A DNA stretch of 20,865 nt, taken from Flavobacteriaceae bacterium. GTDB taxonomy: Bacteria; Bacteroidota; Bacteroidia; Flavobacteriales; Flavobacteriaceae. Under the pieces are notes generated by a model that did not search any database, had not been told where the DNA came from, and was given only the letters and a program-made list of their open reading frames with translations. The DNA lies in the NCBI GenBank assembly GCA_947461915.1, contig CANHNG010000003.1, positions 1-20,865 on the forward strand, read 5' to 3'. The position numbers were made by a program, and so were the translations under genes. Shown piece after piece: positions 1 through 18,100 of this stretch. The first letter of the stretch is position 1; the number at the start of each line of letters is the position of its first letter.

Positions 1-159
1 AAAAACAATAAATTATTTGTATTTTCACCGTTAGTTAAATCGCCAGTTTCAGTCCGTTATGCTTGGAATAACACGGATAAAGCCAATCTTTTCAATGACG
101 AGAATCTACCAGCTTCCCCTTTTCGAACTGACAATTGGGAAAATATAATTATCGAATAA
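1..159 (+). CDS. Sialate O-acetylesterase-like protein, C-terminal end (partial)
   Basis: The frame is open from the first base and ends at TAA 157-159, giving the last 52 residues of a protein whose body lies upstream of the window. The stretch SVRYAWNNTDKANLFNDENL followed by PASPFRTDNW is the typical C-terminal signature of SGNH-type sialate O-acetylesterase (SASA/DUF303) proteins. These esterases remove O-acyl, usually acetyl, groups from sugars, and are common in Bacteroidota carbohydrate gene clusters with broad substrates. The catalytic Ser and His are not in the window, so activity cannot be judged. The stop lies 11 bases before the likely start of the GH2 gene, which indicates one transcript. 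The family call rests on a short but distinctive tail. Confidence 0.75.
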   Translation, partial: KNNKLFVFSPLVKSPVSVRYAWNNTDKANLFNDENLPASPFRTDNWENIIIE

Positions 160-170
160 AATCTATTTGT

Positions 171-2888
171 ATGATGTTAATTTTGAATAGAAATAATTTT
201 TACAAACTATTAATACTCTTGTTTTTAAACGGGATGATTTGCTTTACACCACTTTTTGCTCAACAAAACAATCAATTTCAGTCGAATAATTATACCATAA
301 ATGAAGCTTGGAAATTTTCCAAAGAAGATATGCCCGAGAGTTATAAAGCTAGTTTTTCTGATAAAAATTGGTCTACAGTTTCCATTCCCCATACCTGGAA
401 TAATGAAGATGCGGTTGATGAAACCCCTGGTTTTTTTCGCGGAGCTTGCTGGTACCGTCGAAATGTTTTTATCGGCGATGAAGCCAAAGGTAAAAATACC
501 CTGATTAATTTCGAAGGGGCTTACCAAGTGGTGGATTTATATATCAATGAAAAATGGGTCGGCAAACACATCGGAGGCAATACCGCGTTTACTTTTGATA
601 TTACGAAATATGTACAAGTTGGGAAATCAAATTTGTTTGCTATCAAAGTGGATAATTCCTATAATGAAAACATCCCGCCTTTAACGGCCGATTATACTTT
701 TTTCGGGGGCATTAACAGACCCATTTCTTTGTCTTTTGTGGCGCCAATATACATTTCAAAGGATGATTTTGCCTCTTCCGGGGTTTATATCAATACGCCA
801 AAAGTTTCCGAGAAAGAAGCGATTGTCGAGGTAAAAACCTTAATTAAGAATACCCTTTCCGAAAGAAAAACAATTCGTATTGTCCAAAAATACCGTGATC
901 CAAACGGCAAAATTTTAATGGTAACTTCCACTAAATTAGTTTTGAATGCAGGTGATACCCAAACTTTCGTCGCAAAGCCTGTAAAAATTAATAGTCCGGA
1001 ATTATGGTCGCCCGATTCACCTCAATTATATACGATTGTAACGAGTTTAGTCGATAAAAACAATCAAACAATTGAGGAAACGGAGAATACGTTTGGATTG
1101 CGCTGGTTTGAATTTACGGTGGATAAAGGGTTTTATTTGAACGGAAAACAGTTAAAATTAATTGGTGTCAACCGACATGAAATGTACGAAGGTATAGGAA
1201 ATGCGTTGCGTGATGAAATGCACGTTCGGGACATGAATTTGATAAAGGAAATGGGCTGTAATTTTTTGCGGATTTCTCATTATACCCAAGATCAACACAT
1301 CTTGAATCTATGCGATAAATTGGGCATTGTTGCCATGGTTGAAATTCCAATTGTAAATGCCATCACTGAAAATGATATTTTTTTGAACAATTCATTACAC
1401 ATGGCTGAAGAAATGGTCAAGCAAAATTTTAACCATCCGTCTCTGGTTACTTGGGCTTATATGAATGAGGTCATGTTGCGTCCACCTTTCAAGAAAGACC
1501 CTGTTCGCCATGCTACTTATTGCAAAGAGGTAAATAGGCAGGCCAAAGCCATCGAGAAATTAATTCGAGATTTAGATCCCAATCGATATACTTTAATTCC
1601 TTGCCATGGTTCAATAGCATCCTATAAAGAAGCGGGATTGTTTGAAATCCCTAAAATTGTGGGGTTGAATTTATACCAAGGTTGGTACAGCGGAATATTT
1701 TCGGGATTTGACGACTATTTGGATGATTTTCACAAACAGTACCCTAACTCCCCTCTTATCATTACAGAATATGGTGCCGATGTTGATTCTCGATTGCATT
1801 CCTACTTACCGGAACGATTTGATTATACGGTAGAATACGGGAATTTGTTTCACGAGCATTATTTTAAAGCGATTCAGGAAAGAAATTTTGTTTCGGGAGC
1901 TGCGATTTGGAACCTAAATGATTTTTATTCAGAAGGACGGGCTGCCGCTGTTCCTCACGTTAACAACAAAGGCATAATAGGGTTAAATCGAGAAAAGAAA
2001 GATACTTATTACATGTACCAAGCTAATTTACTCAAAAAACCTTTTGTGGCAATAGGCTCCAATGCATGGTCAAGCAGGGCAGGAGTTGAAACTCAATCAA
2101 GTGTTTGTTTGCAATCGGTAGCGATCTACAGTAATTCACCAAAAGTCGAAGTGACACTAAACACAACATTTTTGGGTTCATTTAGTCCCGTAAACGGAGT
2201 GGTTTACGTTATGGTTCCATTTATTAGTGGCGCCAATATTTTGAAGGCTGTGGTCAATAATGAAGGAATAGAAGCAGCCGATTTTTACAAAACCAATTTT
2301 CAGTTGGTTCCAAAAAAACTCCAAGAGGCTAGTTTCACTTCATTAAATGTGATGTTAGGATCCAATCGTTATTTTGAAGACAAAGAGGCCGATATTTGCT
2401 GGATTCCGGAACAACCCTATTCTGAAGGAAGTTGGGGATATATTGGGGGAAAACCCTTTAAAACTAAAACAAGATTTGGCGAATTGCCAGCCTCAGAATT
2501 GGATATTCTAAATACTACCCAAGACCCTATTTTTCAAACACAACGCAACGGAATTGAATCTTTTAAAGCAGATGTTTCTGACGGTCAATATGAAATTTAT
2601 TTCTATTGGGCACATCTTATTCCGGCAGTGCAAAAAGAGGCGTTGGCCTATAATTTAGGCAACACTTCAACTTATGAAAATGCCACTAATTATATTTTTG
2701 ATGTTGTTGTAAATGGAAGCACGGTACTTCAAAATTTTGACATTCCTAGCCAAATAGGATCGGAAAGAGCCATTATAAAAAGCACACAAATTAACGTCAA
2801 AGAAGGCAAAGGAATTACCATTAAATTGGATGCAAGTAAGAATGGGAAGACTTATTTGAATGCAATAAGAATTGTAAAAATTAACTAA
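171..2888 (+). CDS. Secreted glycoside hydrolase family 2 enzyme (beta-galactosidase/beta-glucuronidase type)
   Basis: With the start at ATG 171 the protein has 905 residues. The frame is open to ATG 135, but that start would overlap the upstream gene and put 12 extra polar residues before the signal peptide. An ATG at 174 is equally possible. Residues 1-31 form a signal peptide ending LFAQQ. A GH2 sugar-binding jelly roll (about 35-190), an Ig-like sandwich (about 195-310) and a TIM barrel (about 315-620) follow. The barrel shows GVNRHEM, the acid/base Glu433 in WAYMNEV, the nucleophile Glu533 in IITEYGAD, and IWNLNDF. The last 170 residues resemble a malectin-like carbohydrate-binding domain (NRYFEDKEADICWIPEQPYS). 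Both catalytic residues are present, so it should be active on a terminal beta-linked sugar. The exact sugar (galactose, glucuronate or another) is not clear. It is probably periplasmic and co-transcribed with the upstream esterase. Confidence 0.9.
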   Translation: MMLILNRNNFYKLLILLFLNGMICFTPLFAQQNNQFQSNNYTINEAWKFSKEDMPESYKASFSDKNWSTVSIPHTWNNEDAVDETPGFFRGACWYRRNVFIGDEAKGKNTLINFEGAYQVVDLYINEKWVGKHIGGNTAFTFDITKYVQVGKSNLFAIKVDNSYNENIPPLTADYTFFGGINRPISLSFVAPIYISKDDFASSGVYINTPKVSEKEAIVEVKTLIKNTLSERKTIRIVQKYRDPNGKILMVTSTKLVLNAGDTQTFVAKPVKINSPELWSPDSPQLYTIVTSLVDKNNQTIEETENTFGLRWFEFTVDKGFYLNGKQLKLIGVNRHEMYEGIGNALRDEMHVRDMNLIKEMGCNFLRISHYTQDQHILNLCDKLGIVAMVEIPIVNAITENDIFLNNSLHMAEEMVKQNFNHPSLVTWAYMNEVMLRPPFKKDPVRHATYCKEVNRQAKAIEKLIRDLDPNRYTLIPCHGSIASYKEAGLFEIPKIVGLNLYQGWYSGIFSGFDDYLDDFHKQYPNSPLIITEYGADVDSRLHSYLPERFDYTVEYGNLFHEHYFKAIQERNFVSGAAIWNLNDFYSEGRAAAVPHVNNKGIIGLNREKKDTYYMYQANLLKKPFVAIGSNAWSSRAGVETQSSVCLQSVAIYSNSPKVEVTLNTTFLGSFSPVNGVVYVMVPFISGANILKAVVNNEGIEAADFYKTNFQLVPKKLQEASFTSLNVMLGSNRYFEDKEADICWIPEQPYSEGSWGYIGGKPFKTKTRFGELPASELDILNTTQDPIFQTQRNGIESFKADVSDGQYEIYFYWAHLIPAVQKEALAYNLGNTSTYENATNYIFDVVVNGSTVLQNFDIPSQIGSERAIIKSTQINVKEGKGITIKLDASKNGKTYLNAIRIVKIN

Positions 2889-3015: not shown

Positions 3016-4215
3016 ATGAAAGAAAACGTAACATTAAACAGTAAACAACAAAAAATAGCTTTGTTTTGTGCTTGTCTCGCCGGATTTGCATTTTCAGCAA
3101 ATTATACCAATCATGCTCCTTTAAAAGAATGGTTGATGAAGAGTTTTGATACTCCCGAATTTCCTTTGACCAAAGCAATGTTTGGATTTTTAACCACTGC
3201 AATTTTTTTGACACATGCCCTAATGCAAATTCCTGGGGGGCATTTGGCAGATAAATTTGGTCCAAAAAAAGTGTTGTGTTTTGCATTGACAATTGTCTGT
3301 ATTGGCAATTTTGGAATATCTTTTTCTGATAGTTACAATCAATTATTACTTTGGAAATTTTTTGTTGGTTTTGGGACTGGAGTTAGCTTTGTTTCTGGAG
3401 CAAGGTATATCTATCAATCTATTCCTTTAGAAAAATTATTTATTTATCAGGGGTATTACGGAGCAAGTGTACTTTTGGGTTCTGGTTTTGTAATTTTCGC
3501 AGTGCCACAAATAGCACGAATTTTTGACAGTTGGTCACCTGCATTTATTTCCACTTCGGCAGTAGCTTTTATAACGTTGCTGACTGTATTTGTTTTTGCA
3601 CCAAAACCTCATGCAAAAGATCATCCTCACAGTTCACTATTAACAATGCTTTCAAATGGACAATTGTATTTATTAGGATTGGTTCAAATGGCTTCTTTTG
3701 GTTTAGTAATCGTAATTGGATCATGGATTACAGAAATGTTAAAAGAAAATTTTGAATTTGAGAATAAATTAATAATCCCATTTATTGCTTCTTTGGTTTT
3801 ATTGCTGGGAATTTTCACAAGACCTTGGGGAGGCAAATTAGTTTCGCAAATTGGAGTTCGAAAATTATTGATTATTAGTTTGCTTCTAAATGCAACCGGA
3901 TGTTTTATATTAGCTTATTTCACCCCATTTCTTTACATTGATATTATAGCAATTGTATTATTGGGAATAGGCTGCGGATTGCCTTATGCAGGATTGTTTA
4001 ATAGAGCTGCTAACTTATTTCCGGGGAGAGCTGGAGCAGCAATGGGTCTTGTTAACATGCTTGGAATTGTATTTATATTGGCAGCAGCTCCATTAGTTGG
4101 TAAAATTGCAGATTGGGCAGGAAATTTCTCCTCTGCTTTTATTTCCTTGGGGATATTTGCATTGATAGTATGCGCTATTTCAATTAGAATTAATAACGAG
4201 CACTTACAAAAATAA
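3016..4215 (+). CDS. Major facilitator superfamily transporter, candidate malonate importer
   Basis: This 399-residue protein has about 12 hydrophobic segments. The MFS motif A between TM2 and TM3 is clear at residues 74-85 (GGHLADKFGPKK), and a weaker version lies between TM8 and TM9 (RPWGGKLVSQIGVRK). The length is normal for the superfamily. The gene is first in a group with a MatB-like synthetase 30 bases downstream and a malonyl-CoA decarboxylase-like gene after that, so I infer malonate or a related small carboxylate as substrate. Known Mat systems use unrelated carriers such as MatC, so this would be a replacement by a different family. The family is clear but the substrate rests only on context. 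The start at 3016 follows an A-rich leader (ttttaaaaaATG), and a palindromic operator lies 68 bases upstream. There is no sign of truncation. Confidence 0.88.
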   Translation: MKENVTLNSKQQKIALFCACLAGFAFSANYTNHAPLKEWLMKSFDTPEFPLTKAMFGFLTTAIFLTHALMQIPGGHLADKFGPKKVLCFALTIVCIGNFGISFSDSYNQLLLWKFFVGFGTGVSFVSGARYIYQSIPLEKLFIYQGYYGASVLLGSGFVIFAVPQIARIFDSWSPAFISTSAVAFITLLTVFVFAPKPHAKDHPHSSLLTMLSNGQLYLLGLVQMASFGLVIVIGSWITEMLKENFEFENKLIIPFIASLVLLLGIFTRPWGGKLVSQIGVRKLLIISLLLNATGCFILAYFTPFLYIDIIAIVLLGIGCGLPYAGLFNRAANLFPGRAGAAMGLVNMLGIVFILAAAPLVGKIADWAGNFSSAFISLGIFALIVCAISIRINNEHLQK

Positions 4216-4245
4216 CGTATAATATTTTTAAATTATAATTAGATA

Positions 4246-5688
4246 ATGAACTTAATACAGATTTTTAATTTATCATTAGTAGAGCGAAAAGATAAAATTG
4301 CTATAGAATTTGGGAGCGTCAGCTATACGTTCGGGGAAATCAATCTAAGAAGCAATAGAATGGCCAATCTCTTGCTTTCAAAAGGGCTTGTTGCCGGAGA
4401 TCGTATCTGTATTTACTTAGAGAATTGCGTCGAGATGATTGACTTGTATTTGGCTTGTGCCAAAACGGGAATTATATTCGTACCCGTTAATATCTTATAC
4501 AAAGAAAGAGAAATTACCCATATCCTAGGGGATGCCGATCCAAAACTATTAATAGCGGATGTTGCAGTTCCAGGAGGTTTTCCGGCATTGCAATTGACTG
4601 ATTTGATTCAAGAATTAAAAAGTCAAAGTGATGCTGCCGTAAAAATTAGAACCACCGGTGATAGTCCTGCAGCCTTGGTGTATACTAGTGGTACTACTGG
4701 GGCATCGAAAGGAGCGATTCTGACACATAATAATTTTATCTCCAATGGGTTAAATTTAGTATGCAGTTGGCAAATAACCGAAAACGATCGTTTTCTGCTG
4801 GCACTTCCTTTATTTCATGTTCATTCTCTTGCGAATGGAATTCATTGCTGGTTAATGAGTGGATGTACCATGCGTTTATTGGTAAGATTCGAACACCAAA
4901 AAGCGGCGAACGAATTCCTGGATTTTAAACCTAGCTTGTTCTTTGGAGTGCCAACAATTTACATCCGCTTGCTGGAACAACCCAATGACATTGCCCAAAA
5001 AATAGGATCCAACATGCGATTGTTCGCCTGTGGTTCTGCACCATTGCCTCCTCAGGTAATGGAAGATTTTGAAACTAAATATGGCCACGTAATTCTAGAA
5101 CGTTATGGAATGACGGAAACATTAATGAACATCAGTAATCCGTATAGTGGCGAACGAAGACCGGGAACGGTGGGATTTCCTTTGCCGGGGATATCAGCAA
5201 AAATTCTCTTGCCGGATGGAGAAGTGGCAGCAATCGACGAAGAAGGAGAAGTGTGTGTAAAAGGCCCCAATGTTTTTGCAGGCTATTGGAAAAGAGATCA
5301 AGCCACTATAGATTCCTTTGTGGATGGATATTTTAAAACCGGTGATATGGGCGTTATTTCCGAAGACGGTTATTTTACCTTAAGAGGCCGAAAAAGTGAT
5401 TTGATTATCAGTGGTGGATTTAATATTTATCCCCGAGAAATTGAAGAATTTTTGTTAGAACAAATAGGAATTGCCGAGGCAGTTGTTGTTGGGATTCCAC
5501 ATGAAACAAGAGGGGAGATGCCGGTGGCTTATATCGTCCCTTCCGATAATTATGATGCCATCGTAATTGAGGAATTGTGCAAAAAGACTTTTGCGTCTTT
5601 TAAAATTCCAAGAAAATTCATTTCGGTAGAGAGTCTGCCCAGAACGGCTTTGGGAAAAGTTCAAAAACATTTACTGCCAAAAGCATAA
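4246..5688 (+). CDS. matB: Malonyl-CoA synthetase-like acyl-CoA ligase (MatB family)
   Basis: This 480-residue member of the ANL superfamily would convert malonate, CoA and ATP to malonyl-CoA, AMP and PPi. The adenylation motifs are complete: the phosphate loop at about 145-156 (LVYTSGTTGASK), RYGMTET at 286-292, TGD at 365-367, the hinge GRKSDLIISGG at 381-391, and the catalytic Lys471 in PRTALGKVQKH. The stretch after motif A5, NISNPYSGERRPGTVGFPLPG, is typical of MatB/ACSF3-type malonyl-CoA synthetases rather than acetyl- or long-chain acyl-CoA ligases. The length of about 480-510 also fits MatB. It lies 30 bases after the transporter gene and 62 before the decarboxylase-like gene. The protein is probably cytoplasmic. 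Methylmalonate is a possible alternative substrate. Assignment to the ligase family is secure; malonate specificity is likely but rests on motif similarity. Confidence 0.85.
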   Translation: MNLIQIFNLSLVERKDKIAIEFGSVSYTFGEINLRSNRMANLLLSKGLVAGDRICIYLENCVEMIDLYLACAKTGIIFVPVNILYKEREITHILGDADPKLLIADVAVPGGFPALQLTDLIQELKSQSDAAVKIRTTGDSPAALVYTSGTTGASKGAILTHNNFISNGLNLVCSWQITENDRFLLALPLFHVHSLANGIHCWLMSGCTMRLLVRFEHQKAANEFLDFKPSLFFGVPTIYIRLLEQPNDIAQKIGSNMRLFACGSAPLPPQVMEDFETKYGHVILERYGMTETLMNISNPYSGERRPGTVGFPLPGISAKILLPDGEVAAIDEEGEVCVKGPNVFAGYWKRDQATIDSFVDGYFKTGDMGVISEDGYFTLRGRKSDLIISGGFNIYPREIEEFLLEQIGIAEAVVVGIPHETRGEMPVAYIVPSDNYDAIVIEELCKKTFASFKIPRKFISVESLPRTALGKVQKHLLPKA

Positions 5689-5750
5689 AGCCAATTCAAT
5701 CAACCAACAAAAAGCAAAAAAGCATAATTTTTAATAACACACACACTATA

Positions 5751-6326
5751 ATGATACTGCAATATGGCCAAGAGGGGTTTAATGAGGAATGGCTAGAATT
5801 AATAAAAAATGACCCGGTACACCCCAATATATCCATCGCTAAAAGGATAACTGGAGACCGAACTGTTTTTGTCTTTCTACATGAGGGTGTGCCGCAATTT
5901 ATGGTTTGTGTGAGAATTGGCAATAGACTGCCAAGAAATATGATGGAGGTATTAAACGATGATGGCTATAAAAGCAAATTCGACATTACGTATGCTATTT
6001 TTTATTCTATTTTTCGTTTGCCAGAAGCCACTTTGAAAGGAGCGGGGACAACCGCGATTAAGGATTTAATTGAACATTGCCGTGCATTAGGGATTAAAAA
6101 TTTCTTTACCCTAAGTCCAATACCTTCAATGAGGGAACATATTAAAAGAAGGCCAAGCGAATCTTCGGTTCGCAAATATTTAGAATCTTGGGAAGGGTCA
6201 GTGGCTAAATTTCATTTAAGCAATGGGGCCAAAATTCACAGTATTAATTTTGATGCCGATTATAGCGAACAAAGACTGAATGAAAGTTGGGGTATCATGG
6301 TGAATTATGACTATAACACAAAATAA
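5751..6326 (+). CDS. Malonyl-CoA decarboxylase-like protein, catalytic domain only
   Basis: This 191-residue protein matches the C-terminal GNAT-fold half of malonyl-CoA decarboxylase (MatA/MLYCD), which converts malonyl-CoA to acetyl-CoA and CO2. Visible family signatures are HPNISIAKRITGDRTVFVF near residues 24-42, AIFYSI at 82-87, TLSPIPSM at 120-127, VAKFHLSNGA at 151-160 and GIMVNYDY at 181-188. From memory of the family, Ser122, His155 and Tyr186 line up with active-site positions. The helical N-terminal domain of canonical enzymes (about 450-490 residues) is absent, and only 62 bases separate the start from the upstream synthetase gene, so this looks like a true short form rather than a misplaced start. 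The region AIFYSIFRLPEATLKGAGTT departs from the usual GISFGNFLIK-type helix. It probably acts after MatB in the same operon. Activity remains uncertain. Confidence 0.72.
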   Translation: MILQYGQEGFNEEWLELIKNDPVHPNISIAKRITGDRTVFVFLHEGVPQFMVCVRIGNRLPRNMMEVLNDDGYKSKFDITYAIFYSIFRLPEATLKGAGTTAIKDLIEHCRALGIKNFFTLSPIPSMREHIKRRPSESSVRKYLESWEGSVAKFHLSNGAKIHSINFDADYSEQRLNESWGIMVNYDYNTK

Positions 6327-6440: not shown

Positions 6441-6818
6441 ATGATGAGAACTATAAAATTCAGGACTTTTTATAAACCGGATGCTGATTTTGACTATCAC
6501 GATGCGGTTGATTTAAAAAAATCACCCTCTTTTTTGCTTCATTATGGAGACTGTGAAATGGAACAATTTACAGGCCTTTATGATAGAAATGGAAAAGAAA
6601 TTTACGAAGGGGATTTTTTATGTGATTTTGAGATTGAGGACGAAGAAAACGGTAATATACCATATTACAAAGTAGAGTATGTGGATCGATTGGGTTGCTG
6701 GTGTGTGGACACTTCTATTTCAAGAAACGGATCCGGTTACGTAAGCATAACAGATTATTTTGTGAAAGAAAATATAGAAATTATGGGCAATAGCTATCAA
6801 AACCCCGAGCTTTTTTAG
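6441..6818 (+). CDS. YopX-family small protein
   Basis: This 125-residue protein begins MMRTIKFRTF and contains MEQFTGLYDRNGKEIYEGDF near residues 40-60 and IEIMGNSYQNPEL at the C-terminus. These are the hallmark start, middle and end of YopX-family proteins, small beta-rich proteins of unknown function usually found in phages and mobile elements of Firmicutes and Bacteroidota. ATG 6444 would serve equally well as the start. No other phage gene is visible nearby, so its place between a catabolic operon and a secreted beta-helix gene is unusual. It could be a leftover of a past insertion or a domesticated gene. The operator and promoter of the next gene begin 108 bases after its stop. The family call is good but the function is unknown. 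Confidence 0.8.
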   Translation: MMRTIKFRTFYKPDADFDYHDAVDLKKSPSFLLHYGDCEMEQFTGLYDRNGKEIYEGDFLCDFEIEDEENGNIPYYKVEYVDRLGCWCVDTSISRNGSGYVSITDYFVKENIEIMGNSYQNPELF

Positions 6819-7006: not shown

Positions 7007-9025
7007 ATGAAATCAAATTACCAAAAAAAGTCCCAAAACAGAGCCTTGTTCCAATTTATAGTGGCCGTATTGATGTTAATTTCAGTTCATCAGGCATCTG
7101 CAATCGACTACTATATTGATTCTGTTGCTGGAGTAGATACTAATAACGGTACATCACAAGCTACTCCTTATAAAAACGTATCCCGAATTAACGGAATGTC
7201 TTTCTCTTTGGGCACAAAGATATATTTGAAATGTGGCAGCGTTTGGAACGGCCAACAATTGAAATTTGGAGGTTCTGGAACAGCAGCTTATCCCATTGTT
7301 GTGGATCAATACGGAACAGGGGTAAAGCCAAGAATCAACGGGGATGGTCTAGTAGGGCAAGGCGTAGTTTATTTATATAATCAAGAATACATAGAAATCA
7401 ACAATTTAGAGATTACGAACTATCCGGTTTTATCTCCTTCTACCAACCCGAATAGTATTTTCTTCGTGGGTTTATATACCACATCAGGAACCAATAAAAA
7501 TCCTTATGGTGCCGATAGACGTGGAGTGATGGTGGCACTTATGAATAAAGGAACAGGTACTACTGCAGTTGCCAATCATATCTATTTAAAAAATTTAAAC
7601 ATTCACCATATCAAAGGACAGCTGGGTAATGGTTCTACGGCTGTTAATGGAGCCATTCCAAAAAGGACGGGAGGGATATATTTTGTGGTACTTGATGAAA
7701 CGACGGGAAACAATTCCAGATTTAATGATGTGTTGATTGACAATTGTGCAATAAATTATTGCGAAAATACAGGATTGGCTTTCGATAACGAAGACAATGT
7801 GTATTACCCAGGAGGCACTGAACTAGCCCTATGGACTGCCAGAAAGTTTACCAATATATTAGTGAAAAACAATATCATACACCACATTGGCAAGAATGCC
7901 ATGATTATAAGATGTACGGATGAAACGGGTTTAATAGAACGCAACGTTTGTTATGAAACTGCTGTGGGAACCACCGGGAACACCATGTTTACGGCACGAG
8001 CTAAAGGAACCGTTTTCCAGTATAATGAAGGATACTATAACAGAGCAACCACACAAAATGTAGACCCAGGAAACATTGACGGCAGTATGTACGATCCTGA
8101 TTTTGGCAGTGTAGGCGTTATTTTTCAATACAGTTACAGCCATGATAATTGTCAAGGAATTTATTGGGGGTGCAACACGCGCGGTTCAAATAACAATACG
8201 ACTGGAATTCCTGATCCAGAGGATGTAGGTTGTACTTTACGATATAACATCAGCCAAAATGATTTGGGAGATCTTGTATATTTCAACTATTCCTCCGCGG
8301 GAAATGAAATTTACAACAATGTTTTTTACATAAAATCAGGATTGAGTTCTAAAATCATTCATGAAAACGGTGGAAATAACCATACCTATAATTTTTACAA
8401 CAATATTATTTACGATGCGGGAAGCGCCACTTTTGCATGGGGTTCCGGTACAGGGGTGCAAACGCGGAATTTTAAAAACAATGTTTTTTATGGTGTTACT
8501 GTTCCTTCACAAATTGTAGATACACAAACTCTTACTTCGGATCCCTTGTTTGTGAATCCAGGAAAAGTCACAACAGGTGTGACTGCGGGTATTACGAATG
8601 TGCTTCTAGAGGGATATAAATTACAATCAGCTTCTCCGGCGCTTGCCAACGGAAAAATTATCAACCCTAACGGGAGTCAAGATTTTTTCGGCAATCTTGT
8701 AAATACCCTAACAGCACCCAATAGGGGAGCCTATCAAGGATCTGGAATCACGTTGGGATTAGCCGACTGGAAAATCAATATGCTCCATATTTATCCAAAT
8801 CCGGTTCGGAACAACCAATTCACCATTGCAGTACCTGACCAAATAAGCGGTGCTGTAACTGTTGAAATATGTAATTTAATTGGCCAATCAATATACAAAT
8901 TGACTACTGGGGTTGTCAATAATGAAATAACGATACACCCTATTGTGGCCTTGAATAGGGGCGTGTATATTGTATCGATGAAAAATGAGGGTGCAGTGTT
9001 TACCCAAAAAATCAGTGTGCCGTAA
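7007..9025 (+). CDS. Secreted right-handed beta-helix protein with T9SS sorting domain
   Basis: This 672-residue protein has a signal peptide (about 1-32, ending HQASA). A right-handed parallel beta-helix (about 35-585) starts with YYIDSVAGVDTNNGTSQATP, a pattern common at the N-terminus of Bacteroidota pectate lyase-like proteins. Repeated Asn-rich rungs follow (NNLEITNYP, IDNCAINYCENTG, KNNIIHHIGKNAMI, YNNVFYI). Residues from about 593 (LHIYPNPVRNNQF) to the end (GVYIVSMKNEGAVFTQKISV) form a type A T9SS sorting domain, so the protein is exported through the outer membrane and probably anchored there or released. The fold suggests a polysaccharide lyase, hydrolase or binding protein, but I do not recognise the family or catalytic residues. 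The N-terminal region of the 1821-aa protein at 15148 is a close paralogue. A shared operator lies just upstream, and a terminator follows at 9089. Confidence 0.85.
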   Translation: MKSNYQKKSQNRALFQFIVAVLMLISVHQASAIDYYIDSVAGVDTNNGTSQATPYKNVSRINGMSFSLGTKIYLKCGSVWNGQQLKFGGSGTAAYPIVVDQYGTGVKPRINGDGLVGQGVVYLYNQEYIEINNLEITNYPVLSPSTNPNSIFFVGLYTTSGTNKNPYGADRRGVMVALMNKGTGTTAVANHIYLKNLNIHHIKGQLGNGSTAVNGAIPKRTGGIYFVVLDETTGNNSRFNDVLIDNCAINYCENTGLAFDNEDNVYYPGGTELALWTARKFTNILVKNNIIHHIGKNAMIIRCTDETGLIERNVCYETAVGTTGNTMFTARAKGTVFQYNEGYYNRATTQNVDPGNIDGSMYDPDFGSVGVIFQYSYSHDNCQGIYWGCNTRGSNNNTTGIPDPEDVGCTLRYNISQNDLGDLVYFNYSSAGNEIYNNVFYIKSGLSSKIIHENGGNNHTYNFYNNIIYDAGSATFAWGSGTGVQTRNFKNNVFYGVTVPSQIVDTQTLTSDPLFVNPGKVTTGVTAGITNVLLEGYKLQSASPALANGKIINPNGSQDFFGNLVNTLTAPNRGAYQGSGITLGLADWKINMLHIYPNPVRNNQFTIAVPDQISGAVTVEICNLIGQSIYKLTTGVVNNEITIHPIVALNRGVYIVSMKNEGAVFTQKISVP

Positions 9026-9633: not shown

Positions 9634-12600
9634 ATGAAAAAAAATCTACAAAAAATGTACGATGGTAAGACACTAGGTGTCTTATTGGTCGTCCTATTGC
9701 TGTTTTTTGGCAGTAATAGCATGAATGCCCAGGCCTTTTCGGCCACCTGGCCCTTTACCAGTGGGACAGCTGCTTCAGTAACGGGTGATGGTAGTAGTAA
9801 TGTATCCGCAAATGCGGCTTCCTACACTACTGGAACACTTGGGACGGTTACCTTTGCCTCCGCTACAACAACAACCGGGTTTCTTAATGGAACTGGTCTT
9901 TCGGGTAGGGCAGCAACTTCTTGTGCTTCATCCTATAATTCAGTGGGTTCGACTTCTCCAGCCGCTCCTTATATTGAATATAAGATAGTGCCTAATGCGG
10001 GTTATAAAATGACAACCAATAGTTTTACGTTTACTGTTGAGCAAGTTACTAATGTAACAAATGTTGTAGTCGCTGCTGGATATTCGGTAAACGGAGGATC
10101 ATCTTTTACGGGTCTCGCGGCTCCTACTACTTCTGGATCATTTACTGCGCCTTCAGCCAATGCTAGTCCAACAGCGTCTAACTATGGAACTTCTGCTACT
10201 GCTCCTGCCACTTGTGCTGGAACTTTTACTTTTACCGTTCCCGCCGCCACTATCGCGGCGACCAACTCTTTTATATTAAGGGTGGTTGTTTGGAGAAATA
10301 ATGCCAGTAATAGTTCATCGGCTAATTTAAAAATTTCACCTCCGGTGATTACAGGTACCACCGAGGTTAATGTTGCACCAGTGATCACGGCTCCAACTCC
10401 TGGAACCTTGAGTAATTTTAATTACATTGCTGGAGCAGGACCTTCTATTTCTAAATCGTTTGTGGTAGCAGGAACAAATCTTACGGCCGATCTTGTGGTG
10501 ACACCGGCAACGGATTATGAAATTTCTTCAGATAATGCCTCTTTTTCAACAACACCAATTTCATTGACTCCTACTGCAGGAACAGTAGCATCCACTACTT
10601 TGTATGCTAGGCTTGCTGCTGGAAAAGTCTCGGGGACGTACATGAATAGGTATATGAACATTACTTCTACCGATGCTGTAACTCAGAGTGTGGTGTGTAG
10701 CGGGTTTGTCACGGCAAATTATTCGTATGTGGGTTCAGGATCATTGGCTGATGTTAATAATTGGGGAGACGCCAGCGACGGCTCAGGGAATCATCCTTTA
10801 AACTTTACAGGCAATTATCAATATTTCACGATTAAAAATACCTCGGCTGTTGCGACAGATGTCCCTTGGACGGTTAGCGGTACTGGTTCTAGAATTATTG
10901 TGGGTTCTCCATCCTCACCTGCTGTAGCGCTAACCATCACAAGTGGAGCCAACATTATTGGCGGTCCAGTCGATTTGTCGAGCGCTAGTTCAGGGTCTAA
11001 TATATTGGTGGTAGCCAATACTTCTTTCTTACCAGCAAACTTAGGAACATTAGACGCGAGTTCAACATTAGAATTTCAAGCGACTATTACTTCAACACTA
11101 GCTACTTATGGAAATAATATCCTTGTTAGTGGAGGTACTTTTAGCCATGCTCCGTCTGGAGGTGCTGCTAATGTTACAGGTAATGTTACCGTAACGGGTG
11201 GGTCCTTTGTGTTGGCAGGTACCTCTGCTTCAACCATTTCAGGAAATGTTACCGTGACGGGTGGAGAGTTTAAAACGAATTCATCTACCATTACCGGGAA
11301 TGTTACGGTTTCAGGAACCGGTATATTTAACCTTAACACAGGAGGTTCTGCCAGAACATTAACCCTTAACGGTAATTTGGATGTTTCGGGAACTGGTGGA
11401 ATTGTAAACAGTGGGGTGACTTCATCTAATGGTTCTGTTCAAGCATTTCATATCAACTTATCCGGAACGGGTAAAACAATTGCCTATTCGGCTTCGGGAA
11501 GTAACCTAACCAAAACGAATTTTTATGTGATTGGAAGTTATGCTTTATCTGGGGATTTAGACTATTCTTCAGCGGGTACTACAGTATTTGCTGCGGGTCA
11601 AGGGTTTTTTACAAGACAAATTTCGGTACTTTCTACAGGAAGTTTGAGTATGGGTGCCCACACTTTAAAAATGGGGAATGCGATTTTAAACGTAACAGCT
11701 CCGGGTACGCTTACTGATGAAGCAGCAACTATTGTTGAAACTACGTGTGCGGCTTATAATGCCCATGACGTACTTGAAGTAAATGAACCTATTGCTCAGG
11801 CAGCTATTCTACCTTCCAGAACATGGTTAGGAACCGTAAAATACAATTATGGTTCTGGTGCTTATGGTCAGAAAATTGTGGATGGTACGTATAATAATAT
11901 TGTCCTTAATAACACTTATGGCGCTGAATTAAGTGGGAATGCTACCGTAAATGGTGCGCTTACTTTTACTGCAGGTAAAATTACCACAGGAACCAACACC
12001 TTGGCAATAGCAACTTCAGGAAGCATTTCCGGAGCTGGAACAGGATGGGTAATTGGTAATTTAAAAAAATTAACCGCTTCAGGGGCTAGTCCTTCATATA
12101 CGTATGCTATAGGAGATGCCACTACTTATATTCCTTTAGCGTTGACTTTCTCAGGTAACACTTCAGCAGCAGGAGGTCTTTCGGCTTCAACTGCTTCAGG
12201 AGATCACGCTCTTGTTGCGAGTTCCTATCTTAACGGTGCAAAAAGTGTAAACAGAACTTGGACTTTGACTAATGATTCATTAGCTGATTTCGGAACGTAT
12301 GATGCTGCTTTTGGGTATGCAATTGGGGACAATGATGCTAATACTGCACCAGCCAATTATAGAGTAGGTTTGTATAGTGCTGACACATGGTCCTATTTAA
12401 CAACTTCAGGAACTATAACTGACAGCGCTGTTACAGTGACTGGTATTTCAAGTTTTGGTGATTTTGCCATTGGAGAATATGTTAGTGCACCAGCTGCTGA
12501 GCCGGCTTCTTTTTGTAGTTCGGCAAATCCTACCATTGCGAGCCTAAGTGGTTCTACTAGTGCTACAGCTCCAAAATGGTATGCTGCTGAAACTGGAGGA

Positions 12601-14982
12601 AGTGTTTTAGCTTCAGATTTGGCATTAGCTTCAGGAACGTATTATGTTTCCCAAACTATTGACGGGGTGGAGAGTGCAAGAACATCAGTTGGGGTTACGA
12701 TAACTTCTAGTACAACAACAGGAAGTGAAACAGTATCAGCATGTGGTACGTCATACACTTGGCCATTAAACGGTCAGTCGTATTCTGCTTCAGGAAACTA
12801 TGATTATGTCGTAGGATGTAACACTGCTACGTTAACTTTGACCTTAACGCCAAACACTACAACAGGTAGTGAGTCCGTATCGGCTTGTGGAAGTTCTTAT
12901 ACTTGGCCATTAAACAGTCAATCATATACTGCTTCAGGAACGTATCCATACGTTGTAGGATGTAACACCGCCACATTGACTTTGACATTGACGCCAGCTA
13001 CAAACAACACGACTACGGTTTCTGCATTTAACACCTATACTTGGGCTAATAATGGAGAAACTTATACCACAAGTGGTACCAAAACAGGGACTACGACCAA
13101 TTGTGTGACAGAGAAGTTAGATTTAACCATTACGACCACTCAAATCCCAACAAGTCCTATGGCATTATGTGCCGGAAAATTTGTAGCGGATGCTATTGGA
13201 AATACTAGTTTGAAATTCTATAAAGATAACCTTGCAAAAACAACAGCTCCATTAGTTGCAGCTACTACCAAATTAGTTTCAGGTACAACGTACTGGGTGA
13301 CGGAAATGATAGGTGTTGTAGAAAGTCCAAGAGTACCTGTAGTGGTAAACTTGACGGCTCTTGTTGCGCCAACTACAATAGCATCGACAGAGGCTAAATT
13401 AATCTGTAAATATATTGGTACTGATAATTTAGTAACGTTCACCACTGCACCAGTTACAGGAGCTTCTTCTTACACCTGGACTGCCCCATTAGGAGCGGTA
13501 ATAACAAATGATGGTGCCACGGCTCTTATCAGTTTTAAAAATGTAAGCGCCACAGCGGGAGCTATCGGTTCAGTAACCGTTGATTCTAATAATGCCTTAG
13601 GATGTCCATCAGGAAAACCAAAAGCATTGGCTTTGACTACCAAAGCGCCAACGGCTCCTAAAACAGTAGCGCTTACTATTAATGGTGTTGCAGTTAAAAA
13701 AGCGGGTAACTTTGTAGGAGATGCTTCTAAAATACTTACATTGACAGTTACCGATCCTAGCTTAACAGCTGATCACTATGATTTTACTTTACCAGAAGGT
13801 GTAAGTGATGTAACAGGAGCTACATCTGTAGGAGGTAGTACAACTCTTTATACTACTCCTTATACAACTACTTCAACAGTGTTAACATTTAATCTAGGAG
13901 GAGTTCAAGCATCTAATACAGCTCTTGCATTTACTGCAACTTCAGTTGCTGGTTGTGGTTCTAGTTCTAAAACGTTAAGCGTTGCTAGAGCAGAGGCAGG
14001 AACACCTAAAGGAATAGTTCTTACCGATGCTACTCTTGCTGATGCTACTGCTATTCCAGCAGTTCTTCCAATAGTACTTAAGAAATTAGACAGCTACACT
14101 GGTTCATTGAAAACAAGAACCTTGACTTTGACTGCTACGCCTAATACAACAGCAGGTTCAGAGGCTACCTCATACAAATGGGTATTGCCAGCAGCTGCAA
14201 CAGTTGTTGGTGGTACTGCTACTGCTGTAGAGGGTCAAGCTAATACGTATACTAGTACTTCTAAAGTTATTAGTATAAATTTAGCTAGTGTTGGTACTGA
14301 AACTGCATTCACTTTTAGAGTGTTTGGAGTGAACGGTAATGGAGCTTCATTGGCTTCTAAAGACTTGGCTTGTACTAGCGCGTTGCCAAAAGCACCAGCT
14401 GCTATTTATGCGGGTACTAATACATCGCTTTCAGGAACTAAATTCCTTGCCTACAGCCCTAGTTGTGGTACGGTTACTATAAGTGTACCGGCAGTGTTTG
14501 GTGTTGAGAATAATTTTGAGGTAACTGCTGGTACAGCAGGTTTGCCAACAATTGCATCACATGAACCAGGCAGCAACGTAGCTACTATTGATCTTTCAGC
14601 TTTGGGGGGATCTGTTGCAGCTAAATCTACGATTACCATTAGAGCAATTGCTTATACTGCTACAGGACCTATTTATAAAGATTATATAATCAAAATAGGT
14701 ACTGCTTGTTCAGCACCTACTAGAATCGCACCAGAAGCAGCAACTGCTACTGAAAAATTCAGCGCGGTGGCCTATCCAAATCCAGCTGCGGAAGGATTCA
14801 GAGTTAAATCTAGTAACGGAAAATCATTTGGAGTACAGGTGTATGACATGTTGGGTCGTTCAATCGAACAACGTCAGATGAGCTCTGATGCTCAAATAGG
14901 GTCTAACTATGCTAAAGGGATTTACAATGTAATTGTAAACCAAGGAGCAAGCGTGAAAACACTACGAGTGATTAAGCAATAG
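9634..14982 (+). CDS. Giant repetitive cell-surface protein secreted by T9SS
   Basis: This 1782-residue protein has a signal peptide (about 1-34, ending SMNAQA). Residues 35-240 are a Ser/Thr/Gly-rich beta domain, and an Ig-like domain lies at about 245-360 (TPGTLSNFNYIAGAGPSISK). Beta-solenoid-like rungs sit near 516-562 (GNVTVTGG repeats). An Ig-like unit at about 952-1025 (SGTYYVSQTIDGVESARTSV) matches the array in the 1821-aa protein. Two near-identical 48-residue units and a degenerate third occupy 1027-1168, and Ig/PKD-like modules run from there to about 1700. The end, from about 1707 (AYPNPAAEGF) through VQVYDMLGRS to KTLRVIKQ, is a type A T9SS sorting domain. I see no enzyme motif. 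It probably acts as an adhesin, scaffold or carbohydrate-binding surface protein. A promoter and a palindromic operator shared with the malonate operon lie upstream, suggesting induction together. Confidence 0.85.
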   Translation: MKKNLQKMYDGKTLGVLLVVLLLFFGSNSMNAQAFSATWPFTSGTAASVTGDGSSNVSANAASYTTGTLGTVTFASATTTTGFLNGTGLSGRAATSCASSYNSVGSTSPAAPYIEYKIVPNAGYKMTTNSFTFTVEQVTNVTNVVVAAGYSVNGGSSFTGLAAPTTSGSFTAPSANASPTASNYGTSATAPATCAGTFTFTVPAATIAATNSFILRVVVWRNNASNSSSANLKISPPVITGTTEVNVAPVITAPTPGTLSNFNYIAGAGPSISKSFVVAGTNLTADLVVTPATDYEISSDNASFSTTPISLTPTAGTVASTTLYARLAAGKVSGTYMNRYMNITSTDAVTQSVVCSGFVTANYSYVGSGSLADVNNWGDASDGSGNHPLNFTGNYQYFTIKNTSAVATDVPWTVSGTGSRIIVGSPSSPAVALTITSGANIIGGPVDLSSASSGSNILVVANTSFLPANLGTLDASSTLEFQATITSTLATYGNNILVSGGTFSHAPSGGAANVTGNVTVTGGSFVLAGTSASTISGNVTVTGGEFKTNSSTITGNVTVSGTGIFNLNTGGSARTLTLNGNLDVSGTGGIVNSGVTSSNGSVQAFHINLSGTGKTIAYSASGSNLTKTNFYVIGSYALSGDLDYSSAGTTVFAAGQGFFTRQISVLSTGSLSMGAHTLKMGNAILNVTAPGTLTDEAATIVETTCAAYNAHDVLEVNEPIAQAAILPSRTWLGTVKYNYGSGAYGQKIVDGTYNNIVLNNTYGAELSGNATVNGALTFTAGKITTGTNTLAIATSGSISGAGTGWVIGNLKKLTASGASPSYTYAIGDATTYIPLALTFSGNTSAAGGLSASTASGDHALVASSYLNGAKSVNRTWTLTNDSLADFGTYDAAFGYAIGDNDANTAPANYRVGLYSADTWSYLTTSGTITDSAVTVTGISSFGDFAIGEYVSAPAAEPASFCSSANPTIASLSGSTSATAPKWYAAETGGSVLASDLALASGTYYVSQTIDGVESARTSVGVTITSSTTTGSETVSACGTSYTWPLNGQSYSASGNYDYVVGCNTATLTLTLTPNTTTGSESVSACGSSYTWPLNSQSYTASGTYPYVVGCNTATLTLTLTPATNNTTTVSAFNTYTWANNGETYTTSGTKTGTTTNCVTEKLDLTITTTQIPTSPMALCAGKFVADAIGNTSLKFYKDNLAKTTAPLVAATTKLVSGTTYWVTEMIGVVESPRVPVVVNLTALVAPTTIASTEAKLICKYIGTDNLVTFTTAPVTGASSYTWTAPLGAVITNDGATALISFKNVSATAGAIGSVTVDSNNALGCPSGKPKALALTTKAPTAPKTVALTINGVAVKKAGNFVGDASKILTLTVTDPSLTADHYDFTLPEGVSDVTGATSVGGSTTLYTTPYTTTSTVLTFNLGGVQASNTALAFTATSVAGCGSSSKTLSVARAEAGTPKGIVLTDATLADATAIPAVLPIVLKKLDSYTGSLKTRTLTLTATPNTTAGSEATSYKWVLPAAATVVGGTATAVEGQANTYTSTSKVISINLASVGTETAFTFRVFGVNGNGASLASKDLACTSALPKAPAAIYAGTNTSLSGTKFLAYSPSCGTVTISVPAVFGVENNFEVTAGTAGLPTIASHEPGSNVATIDLSALGGSVAAKSTITIRAIAYTATGPIYKDYIIKIGTACSAPTRIAPEAATATEKFSAVAYPNPAAEGFRVKSSNGKSFGVQVYDMLGRSIEQRQMSSDAQIGSNYAKGIYNVIVNQGASVKTLRVIKQ
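11179..11319 (+). repeat. Short internal coding repeats (GNVTV rungs)
   Basis: GGNAATGTTAC-type units begin at 11179, 11242 and 11296, encoding GNVTVTGG, GNVTVTGG and GNVTVSGT with spacings of 21 and 18 residues. This period fits successive rungs of a beta-solenoid. Confidence 0.6.
12712..13137 (+). repeat. Tandem 48-residue units in the 1782-aa protein
   Basis: Two 144-base units (12712-12855 and 12856-12999) encode TTTGSE(T/S)VSACG(T/S)SYTWPLN followed by a stretch ending GCNTATLTLTLTP. A third, shorter and diverged unit runs to about 13137 (SAFNTYTWANNGETY). The first two differ at only a few residues, which points to a fairly recent duplication. Confidence 0.85.
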
Positions 14983-15147: not shown

Positions 15148-18100
15148 ATGAAAAATAAACTACTTTCGATCTTATACAATGGTCAATCAAAAAAATATGG
15201 AATTAGTATTCTATTCCTGATTTTTTTGACTACCAATACGGCTCTAGGAGCCACTTATTATATTGATTCCGTAGCTGGTTTAGATTCAAACAATGGGACT
15301 GCAATAACCACCCCATGGAAGAGCGTGACCAAAGTAAATTCAAAAACTTTGGTGGCAGGGGACAAGATTTATTTAAAATGCGGAAGCGTATGGAACGGTG
15401 AACAACTAAAGTTTTCTGGTTCAGGTTCTGCAGCTAGTCCCATTATTGTGGATCAATACGGTACGGGAGCTAAACCCATTTTAAACGGGAATGGACTCAC
15501 CACCACAGATCAAGGAGTTGTTTATTTATACAACCAACAGTATATTGAAATCAATAATTTAGAAATCACTAATTATCCGACATTATTGGTGTATGCAAAT
15601 AGTACAGCATATACCGTCAATCAAATTGTGTATAACGGAATTTATGCCTACAAAGTTACCGTTGCGGGAACCTCGCCTGCTTCAGGTGGAACTCCTATAC
15701 ACACTTCAGGTACTGCTGTAAGTGGTAGCGTAACATTTTCCTACTATTGTAATTTAACCAATTTATCTTATCCTGAGAATATGTTTTTTACTGGAATTTC
15801 AGACGGGACGCTTACCAATAACCCGCTAGGTGCAGACCGACGCGGCGTAATGGTTGCCCTTAAAAACAAAGGATCAGGAACAACGGCTGTTGCTAATCAC
15901 ATCTATTTAAAGAATCTATACATCCACCACATCAAAGGACAGTTGGGCAATGGTTCGACAACTGTAAACGGTGCCATACCAAAACGGACAGGAGGGATCT
16001 ATTTTACGGTACTTGATGAAACAACAGGAAACAATTCCAGATTTAATGACGTGCTGATTGACGGATGCACCATAAGTTATTCTGAAAATGTAGGATTGGC
16101 TTTTGATAATGAAGATAATGTGTACTACCCTGGAGACACGGAATTGACACTATGGACTGCCAGAAAATTTACCAATATAAAAGTGAGCAACAATACCATT
16201 CATCATATAGGCAAGAATGCCATGATTATTCGTTGTACCGACGAAACAGGACTGATTGAACACAATACCTGTTATGAAACTGCTTTAGGGACTACAGGAA
16301 ACACTATGTTTTCGGCTCGGGCAAAAGGTACTGTATTTCAATACAACGAGGGATATTACAATAGAGCCACCACCCAAACGGTTGATCCGGGAACAATTGA
16401 CGGCAGTATGTATGATCCGGATTACGGAAGCGTAGGGATTATTTTTCAGTACAGTTACAGCCACGATAACTCCGAAGGGATTTACTGGGGTTGCAATACC
16501 CGAAGTCTGAGCAATAATACATCAGGAATTCCTGATCCGGAGGATGTCGGTTGTACCTTGAGGTACAATATAAGTCAGAATGATAAGGGAGACCTTATTT
16601 TCCTTAATTATTCCTCAGCCGGAAACGAAATCTACAACAATATTTTTTATATAAAATCAGGTCTAAGTCCAAATATCATTCATGAAAATTCAGGCAACAA
16701 TCACACTTATAATTTTTATAATAATATTATTTACAATTTAGGAAATGGTGGCTATGCTTTTGGTTCGGGAACCGGAATTCAAACTAGAACTATCCAAAAC
16801 AATACTTTTTACGGCACTCATGCGTCTGACGAACCTTCGGATATAAACAAGTTAACCTCTAATCCTTTATTTGTGAGTCCTGGAGCTGGAACCGTAGGCA
16901 TTAATTCACTTTTGGAAGGCTATAAATTACAAAGTGGATCACCAGCACTTTCTAGTGGAAAATTAATTGCTACTAATGGCGGATTTGATTTTTATGGCAA
17001 TAGCGTTTCCTCTAGTACCATTCCGAATCGTGGCGCTTACCAGGGCGCAGCTATTGTTTCTGTCACGCCACCGCCAACTGCAAATAATCAAAATTTTTGT
17101 GACTCTCTAAATCCAAGCGTTGCAAATTTGGTTGCCACAGGCACGTTATTGAAATGGTATGCAAATGAAATAGGCGGGACTGCATTAGCGACAAGTACAA
17201 TTTTGGTTACGGCAACCTACTATGTTTCGCAAACGATAAGTGGAGTCGAAAGCTCAAGAACAGCAGTTACCGTAACGGTTAACACCACGGAATCCCCACT
17301 GGCAAGTGCGCAAGTTTTTTGTAATTTGGGCACAGTTGCTGATTTGGTCGCCACGGGGACAAATTTGCAATGGTATTCAGCCGCCACTGGAGGAGTTGCT
17401 TTGGCAACAACTTCAGCTTTGACTTCAGGAACTTATTATCTTTCGCAAACTTTGAATGGTTGTGAGAGTGCCAGAGAATCAATCCTAGTGACGGTAAATA
17501 CGACTTCGGCTCCATTGGCGAGTGCTCAACTTTTTTGTAATTCAGGCACGGTTGCTAATTTGGTTGCCATAGGTACTGCTTTGCAGTGGTATGTCGCTCT
17601 TACGGGCGAAAGTGCTTTGGCAACACCTACCGTTTTAGCTTCTGGGATTTATTATGTTTCGCAAACGTTGAATGGTTGTGAGAGTGCCAGGATATCGGTT
17701 TTGGTGACGGTAAATACGACTTCGGCTCCATCTGCAAGTGCGCAAGTTTTTTGTAATTCGGGCACAGTTGCTGATTTGGTCGCCACGGGGACAAATTTGC
17801 AATGGTATTCAGCCGCCACTGGAGGAGTTGCTTTGGCAACAACTTCAGCTTTGACTTCAGGAACTTATTATCTTTCACAAACGTTGAATGGTTGTGAAAG
17901 TGCTAGAACATCGGTTTTGGTGACGGTAAATAAGACTTCGGCTCCATCGGCAAGTACGCAAGTTTTTTGTAATTCAGGTAAGGTTGCTAATTTGATTGCC
18001 ACAGGCACGGCTTTGCATTGGTATGTCGATATTACGGGCGGAAGTACTTTGGCAACAACTACCAATTTAGCTTCTGGGACTTATTATGTTTCGCAAACGT

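Follow-up and report, generated by a model that had tools for sequence, protein, structure and literature searches.

We analysed a stretch of 20,865 nucleotides (the window) from the contig CANHNG010000003.1 of a Flavobacteriaceae bacterium (GCA_947461915.1), in which the genes for a transporter of the major facilitator superfamily (MFS), an acyl-CoA ligase and a short malonyl-CoA decarboxylase (MCD) follow each other behind a glycoside hydrolase family 2 (GH2) gene and the end of an esterase gene (Table 1). A sequence-only reading had described the three genes as a tandem operon for malonate uptake and use, and the coordinates of the open reading frames (ORFs) give gaps of exactly 30 and 62 bases between them, as it had stated. 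The family assignments were reproduced with Pfam: MFS_1 scored 163 bits for the transporter, AMP-binding 283 bits, together with AMP-binding_C, for the ligase, and MCD (PF05292) 94 bits, above the cut-off of 23.2, for the third protein. Other parts of the earlier description had to be corrected. It had placed several GH2 genes next to the trio, whereas the window holds one, and the adjoining esterase is present, but with just its last 52 codons (1–156) inside the window.

Table 1. Features of the malonate gene trio and the genes upstream of it (positions in the window)
Feature	Position	Strand	Length or extent	Basis
Second SASA-type esterase, 3' end	1-159	+	last 52 codons and stop	tblastn
GH2 glycoside hydrolase with Malectin domain, beta-glucuronidase type, probably exported	171-2888	+		Pfam, NxKG
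MFS transporter, probable malonate importer (inferred)	3016-4215	+	399 aa	MFS_1 Pfam
MatB-type malonyl-CoA synthetase	4246-5688	+	480 aa	AMP-binding and AMP-binding_C Pfam
Short malonyl-CoA decarboxylase, catalytic GNAT domain only	5751-6326	+	191 aa	MCD PF05292

A chance neighbourhood was rejected for the trio, since the E-values lie far under the threshold and other genomes retain the gene order. The scan of genome contigs identified eight named-record loci, all of which have the order MFS-ligase-MCD (8/8) and seven of which have GH2 directly upstream of the trio. Thirteen genomes carry the short MCD, one of them in broken form, and in each of them the genes for the MFS and a MatB-like ligase belong to one gene run, with the MFS gene directly beside the ligase or MCD gene (13/13); G1133 and G1154 agree with G876 and G873 in contig number and almost in coordinates, so each pair was treated as one genome and counted once, and the loci L004 and L005 show equal identities to the window MFS and ligase. 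The genes thus remain together outside the window's genome, both among Flavobacterium-type bacteria and in Chitinophagaceae, as the sequence-only reading had expected.

The window ligase is, as judged from its sequence, a MatB-type malonyl-CoA synthetase, an assignment that rests on a comparison of scores and residues. Its best match in the Protein Data Bank (PDB) is Rhodopseudomonas palustris (R. palustris) MatB, with 352 bits for 4fuq and 354 bits for a chimera with the R. palustris enzyme; S. coelicolor MatB (ScMatB) scored 265 bits and the best non-MatB structure, MenE, 234 bits. The malonyl-CoA synthase model PRK07514 ranks first of 107 NCBIfam families with 475 bits, under its cut-off of 558. 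We take R236 and R283 of ScMatB to be its malonate ligands. They align with the Arg residues of YIRLLE and ERYGMTET in the window ligase, and both are present in 12 of the 14 ligases aligned, including that of the window (L005 and L026 represent one locus in this comparison). The other-branch ligases of L040 and L041 have Lys instead of Arg at the first position, yet in the PDB the L041 ligase, too, matches MatB best. The passages of PMC5479551 consulted name no malonate-binding residue. The grouping with non-malonate synthetases that the sequence-only reading had named as a refutation did not occur in this score comparison, MatB being the best match among solved structures. MenE, fatty-acid and oxalate ligases were rejected as identities, scoring about 118 bits or more under R. 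palustris MatB, yet only about 31 bits or more under S. coelicolor MatB.

By family, catalytic dyad and predicted fold, the third protein is a malonyl-CoA decarboxylase predicted to consist of the catalytic GNAT domain only. The Ser/His dyad of S122 and H155 is present in the GNAT fold, the Tyr and Phe around it are kept, and so is the Asp that tells MCD from CurA. The predicted fold gave decarboxylases as all nine top structural matches, the model covering only the C-terminal part of the MCD chains. The identity in the structural comparison is 28–30% to MCD, compared with 14–16% to the GNAT-like decarboxylase domains of CurA, GphF and SxtA, which are parts of polyketide synthases or related megaenzymes, as their entry titles also indicate. 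With the canonical MCDs from human, R. palustris, A. vitis and C. metallidurans, the short protein has in common the GNAT core, the supporting Tyr/Phe residues and the dyad, the roles of which are described in passages of PMC3701320. It differs from them by having no N-terminal helical domain and no helical insert between beta5 and beta6, and by its size, 191 residues compared with 428–460 in the canonical PDB chains. In the alignment with three long MCDs, the whole N-terminal helical oligomerisation domain is missing and the CoA loop is two residues shorter. This reduced form is not a broken long MCD, because its relatives are equally short, with 180–205 residues in 114 of the best 120 of 213 homologues, in a search that admits only proteins of about 105–334 residues, where long MCDs could not show up. 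The MCD alignment comprised 46 of the 213 homologues and the window protein. A short MCD with 69% identity is encoded by Flavobacterium sp. N1994, a cultured candidate for carrying the locus. An acetyltransferase or another GNAT enzyme might also consist of a lone GNAT domain with a shortened CoA loop, but the retained dyad, its neighbouring residues, the Asp and the exclusively decarboxylase structural matches make this identity very improbable.

The substrate of the same two enzymes could instead be methylmalonate, or a malonate with some other substituent, bound to the glycan. MatB enzymes accept methylmalonate, and two Chitinophagaceae use the other-branch MatB with Lys for one of the two conserved Arg. 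As the decarboxylase has the fold and dyad of malonyl-CoA decarboxylases and the ligase scores best with MatB, we consider a substituted substrate quite improbable.

The MFS protein is a probable malonate importer, because it is the sole candidate in the trio and because a separate ExuT-like carrier exists where uronate genes precede SusC. Its nearest NCBIfam models (NarK, lactate, galactonate and oxalate/formate carriers) are weak matches, all below their own cut-offs, and Pfam at 1e-3 identified no MatC-type carrier, with MFS_1 and MFS_1_like as the sole matches. Sequence cannot give the specificity of an MFS protein, and the mixture of anion and sugar-acid carriers among the best models could also fit import of the deacylated sugar or glucuronide, or export of malonate, with malonate entering otherwise. 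Such a role is doubtful: the MFS gene stays with the ligase and MCD genes in L030 and L039, where no GH2 gene lies beside the trio, and the loci with uronate genes upstream of SusC have their own ExuT-like carrier. The proposal of a Mat-like malonate pathway is supported by the ligase scores and by the conservation of the trio, with MFS import as a probable part.

The single GH2 gene points to the probable partner sugar of malonate. The first in-frame ATG codons are at 171 and 174, and the ORF list starts at TTG 135; the N-terminus was judged by eye to carry an export signal. The closest PDB structures are 5uj6/6nzg and 6d50, which we take to be Bacteroides uniformis-type GH2 beta-glucuronidases and which match over the full length with about 620 bits. 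They have the NxKG motif in common with the window enzyme. In the numbering of the TTG-135 ORF, the window GH2 has NNKG at 610–613 and a catalytic Glu pair formed by E445 in MNE and E545 in TEYG. NxKG, a glucuronidase criterion according to a passage of PMC6712278, which also names active-site N and Y motifs, and MNE were found in all seven full-length GH2s examined. The partner sugar is thus probably glucuronate, because the glycosidase resembles beta-glucuronidases and the whole appears as a SusC/SusD locus.

The split esterase gene connects the window to that larger locus. A tblastn search with the L026 homologue placed residues 444–495 at window positions 1–156 (85% identity) and residues 4–445 at positions 7404–8720 of another contig of the same genome, C52 (70%). 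We therefore joined C52 to the window contig (C3), although no exact overlap of at least 15 bases was found between their ends; this draft genome has a completeness of 81% and a contamination of 3.6%. C52 (8,721 bases) encodes SusC, SusD, a GH50-SASA fusion and the second esterase up to residue 445. The order SusC-SusD-GH50/SASA-SASA-GH2-MFS-MatB is found in L026, L027, L028, L029, L031, L046, L070 and L071 and, with C52 and C3 of the window's own genome included, in 9/9 Flavobacterium-type loci that are long enough; an adjacent susC/susD pair with hydrolases was accordingly found on C52 and in the eight other loci. Family checks were made on the L028, L046 and L029 members (SusC and SusD on L028) and the remainder was assigned by sequence match; the SASA family was confirmed by Pfam on the L028 and L046 homologues. 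The fusion protein of about 715 residues has an N-terminal GH50-like part and a C-terminal SASA esterase, and 5t3b scored 264 bits for the L028 member. The N-terminal part was labelled GH50 on the basis of agarase matches. PMC11079163 mentions neither 5T3B nor Bacteroides.

Upstream of SusC, five of the nine loci (L027, L029, L031, L046 and L070) encode UxuA, UxaC and an ExuT-like MFS carrier, with UxuA truncated in L027, L029 and L070, where the stretch ends. L026 and L071 have at this place an opposite-strand gene resembling a LacI-type regulator, as judged by eye, and the L028 stretch begins at SusC. In the window's genome, a contig of 3 kb (C326, locus L057) encodes UxuA, UxaC and the start of ExuT, and the 214 bases before SusC on C52 contain no ExuT end. 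The UxuA and ExuT (158 residues) of C326 share 97% and 94% identity with their L031 counterparts, whereas the window GH2 and its counterpart in L031 share only 58%; this contrast could be due to different selection, to transfer, or to C326 being a stray contig of the draft.

Distribution and loss set the MFS-ligase pair apart from the decarboxylase. The short-MCD profile matched 4/299 genomes of the window's genus and 4/195 genomes of the Chitinophagaceae sample. Among 149 genomes of the family and 395 of the phylum, PF05292 was found in the window's own genome only; among 395 genomes sampled from the class, it was found in the own genome and in three with long MCDs of 473–480 residues. These three (L032, L033 and L034) belong to another family of the class, and the 8–16 kb around their MCD genes contained no relative of the window ligase. 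Plasmid records gave 185 matches, all below 60% identity (34.9% for the first match listed), with names chiefly of rhizobia and Rhodobacteraceae. Searches with the GH50-SASA fusion matched 69/299 genus genomes at E 0.001 or better, most other matches hitting SASA or the GH50-like part alone; at E < 1e-200, a cut chosen by us for the fusion, eight of the 299 remained, two of them cut by contig ends. All four genus genomes with the short MCD are among these eight (hypergeometric 2e-7, kinship ignored). GH2 followed by MFS and MatB was found in all six fusion genomes whose contig continues, the contigs of G1074 and G1205 stopping inside GH2. The one broken MCD, a pseudogene of G878 (loci L010 and L031), is located in L031 at 18907–19474; it contains stops and a frame change, and the MFS and MatB genes preceding it are intact. 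No MCD gene is present in G1211 and G1174 (loci L070 and L071), where the ligase gene is soon followed by the sequence found behind MCD in L031. The broken copy in L031 and the absence in L070 and L071 suggest repeated loss of MCD. The conversion of malonyl-CoA to acetyl-CoA would therefore not always be kept and, as MCD appears dispensable, the carrier and the ligase would form the constant part of the module.

We consider it likely that the trio is the malonate-using end of a polysaccharide utilisation locus (PUL) and handles malonyl groups removed from a glycan or glycoside. A fragment of this compound would be taken up by SusC/SusD, two exported SASA-type esterases, one of them fused to the GH50-like hydrolase, would remove acyl groups including malonyl, and GH2 would release beta-linked glucuronate. 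Starts resembling export signals were seen by eye on the GH50-SASA protein, the second esterase and GH2, and none on the ligase and MCD, which suggests that malonate is freed outside the cytoplasm and that a carrier is needed. The MFS carrier would import the malonate, the MatB-type ligase would activate it to malonyl-CoA at the expense of ATP, and the short MCD would decarboxylate malonyl-CoA, yielding acetyl-CoA and CO2; in genomes without MCD, malonyl-CoA might directly enter fatty-acid synthesis. Glucuronate might be processed via UxaC, a mannonate oxidoreductase and UxuA. The gene identities, catalytic residues, predicted MCD fold and conserved order are computed observations, from which we infer the substrates of the carrier and the esterases, the malonylated compound itself and co-regulation of the locus. 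The idea of malonylated plant glycosides in the sequence-only reading holds in that one gene run includes both esterases and a glycosidase; a plant origin was not borne out.

The strongest argument for an ester origin of malonate is that genes for malonate use, esterases and uronate metabolism recur together. Two Chitinophagaceae (G1013 and G925) have a second layout, which combines UxuA, the other-branch MatB, a BD-FAE/GDSL esterase, MFS and short MCD; the recurrence of this combination with another order and another ligase suggests that the malonate was bound as an ester to a uronate-containing compound. The trio might instead use free environmental malonate, or detoxify this inhibitor of succinate dehydrogenase, with shared regulation or hitch-hiking accounting for the glycan genes nearby. 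The MFS-ligase pair alone could consume malonate, and in L030 and L039 the trio has no GH2 beside it and no SusC/SusD within about 1 and 2 kb, respectively, upstream of the MFS gene. We regard such a free-malonate function as unlikely, because GH2 precedes MFS and MatB in 9/9 Flavobacterium-type loci reaching that far and the operon with the other gene order likewise combines an esterase gene with a uronate gene.

Several observations weigh against the proposed use of malonyl groups from a glycan or glycoside. The malonyl esters are themselves postulated, and SASA enzymes are best known as deacetylases. The MFS protein is remote from every characterised carrier compared, and the ligase stays under the PRK07514 cut-off. 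For GH2, all NCBIfam glucuronidase models are below cut-off (the best, LacZ4 beta-glucuronidase, with 432 compared with 950 bits), and the TE(Y/F/W)G pattern occurs in just five of the seven enzymes examined. The short MCD is rare in both the genus and the Chitinophagaceae sample, and among the loci it is absent in two (L070 and L071) and broken in one, where MFS and MatB remain. In L026 and L071, SusC has no uronate genes next to it. The open-access literature listings, consisting of titles and abstract starts, contained no malonate PUL and no malonylated polysaccharide among the matches listed. Passages of two matched papers concern malonate in other ways: in one, two Flavobacterium species were tested and did not use it, and in the other it is a crystal ligand.

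Compared with known systems, the window resembles the rhizobial MatA-MatB-MatC arrangement in that a malonyl-CoA synthetase and a decarboxylase are encoded next to a carrier gene; it differs by the MFS carrier, the short GNAT-only MCD and the SusC/SusD locus with esterases and a glucuronidase-type GH2. Bacteroidota glucuronate PULs have in common with the locus SusC/SusD, exported hydrolases and esterases, UxuA/UxaC and a hexuronate-type MFS, whereas the window locus has in addition a dedicated malonate module, for which no report appeared among the literature matches listed. Gene loci of Bacteroidota can reveal glycan decorations ahead of chemists, and from a malonate module conserved in this glucuronate-linked SusC/SusD locus one would predict that the bacteria meet a malonylated substrate where they live. 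The locus proposes an MFS malonate carrier and candidate malonyl esterases, namely the two SASA esterases and the BD-FAE/GDSL esterase, and the single-domain MCD of 191 residues might be of use for mechanistic studies and engineering. More tentatively, and with somewhat less than even confidence, the locus might serve an undescribed glucuronate-containing glycan or glycoside with malonyl esters, with the SASA enzymes acting as malonyl esterases and the GNAT-only MCDs as unusually small stand-alone enzymes recycling a carbohydrate decoration.

The remainder of the window encodes proteins of other types. A small phage-type YopX-domain protein (6441–6818) lies just behind the MCD gene. The secreted protein at 7007–9025 has a T9SS sorting domain (Pfam) and a lacto-N-biosidase LnbX-type match (PDB 7v6m, 151 bits), with the NCBIfam LnbX model below cut-off. 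The gene at 9634–14982 encodes a protein of 1782 residues with a T9SS sorting domain and a PKD-like domain. A further secreted protein (15148–20613) has a start very similar, by eye, to that of the 7007–9025 protein, and in L030, a Chitinophagaceae locus, a related piece immediately precedes the trio.

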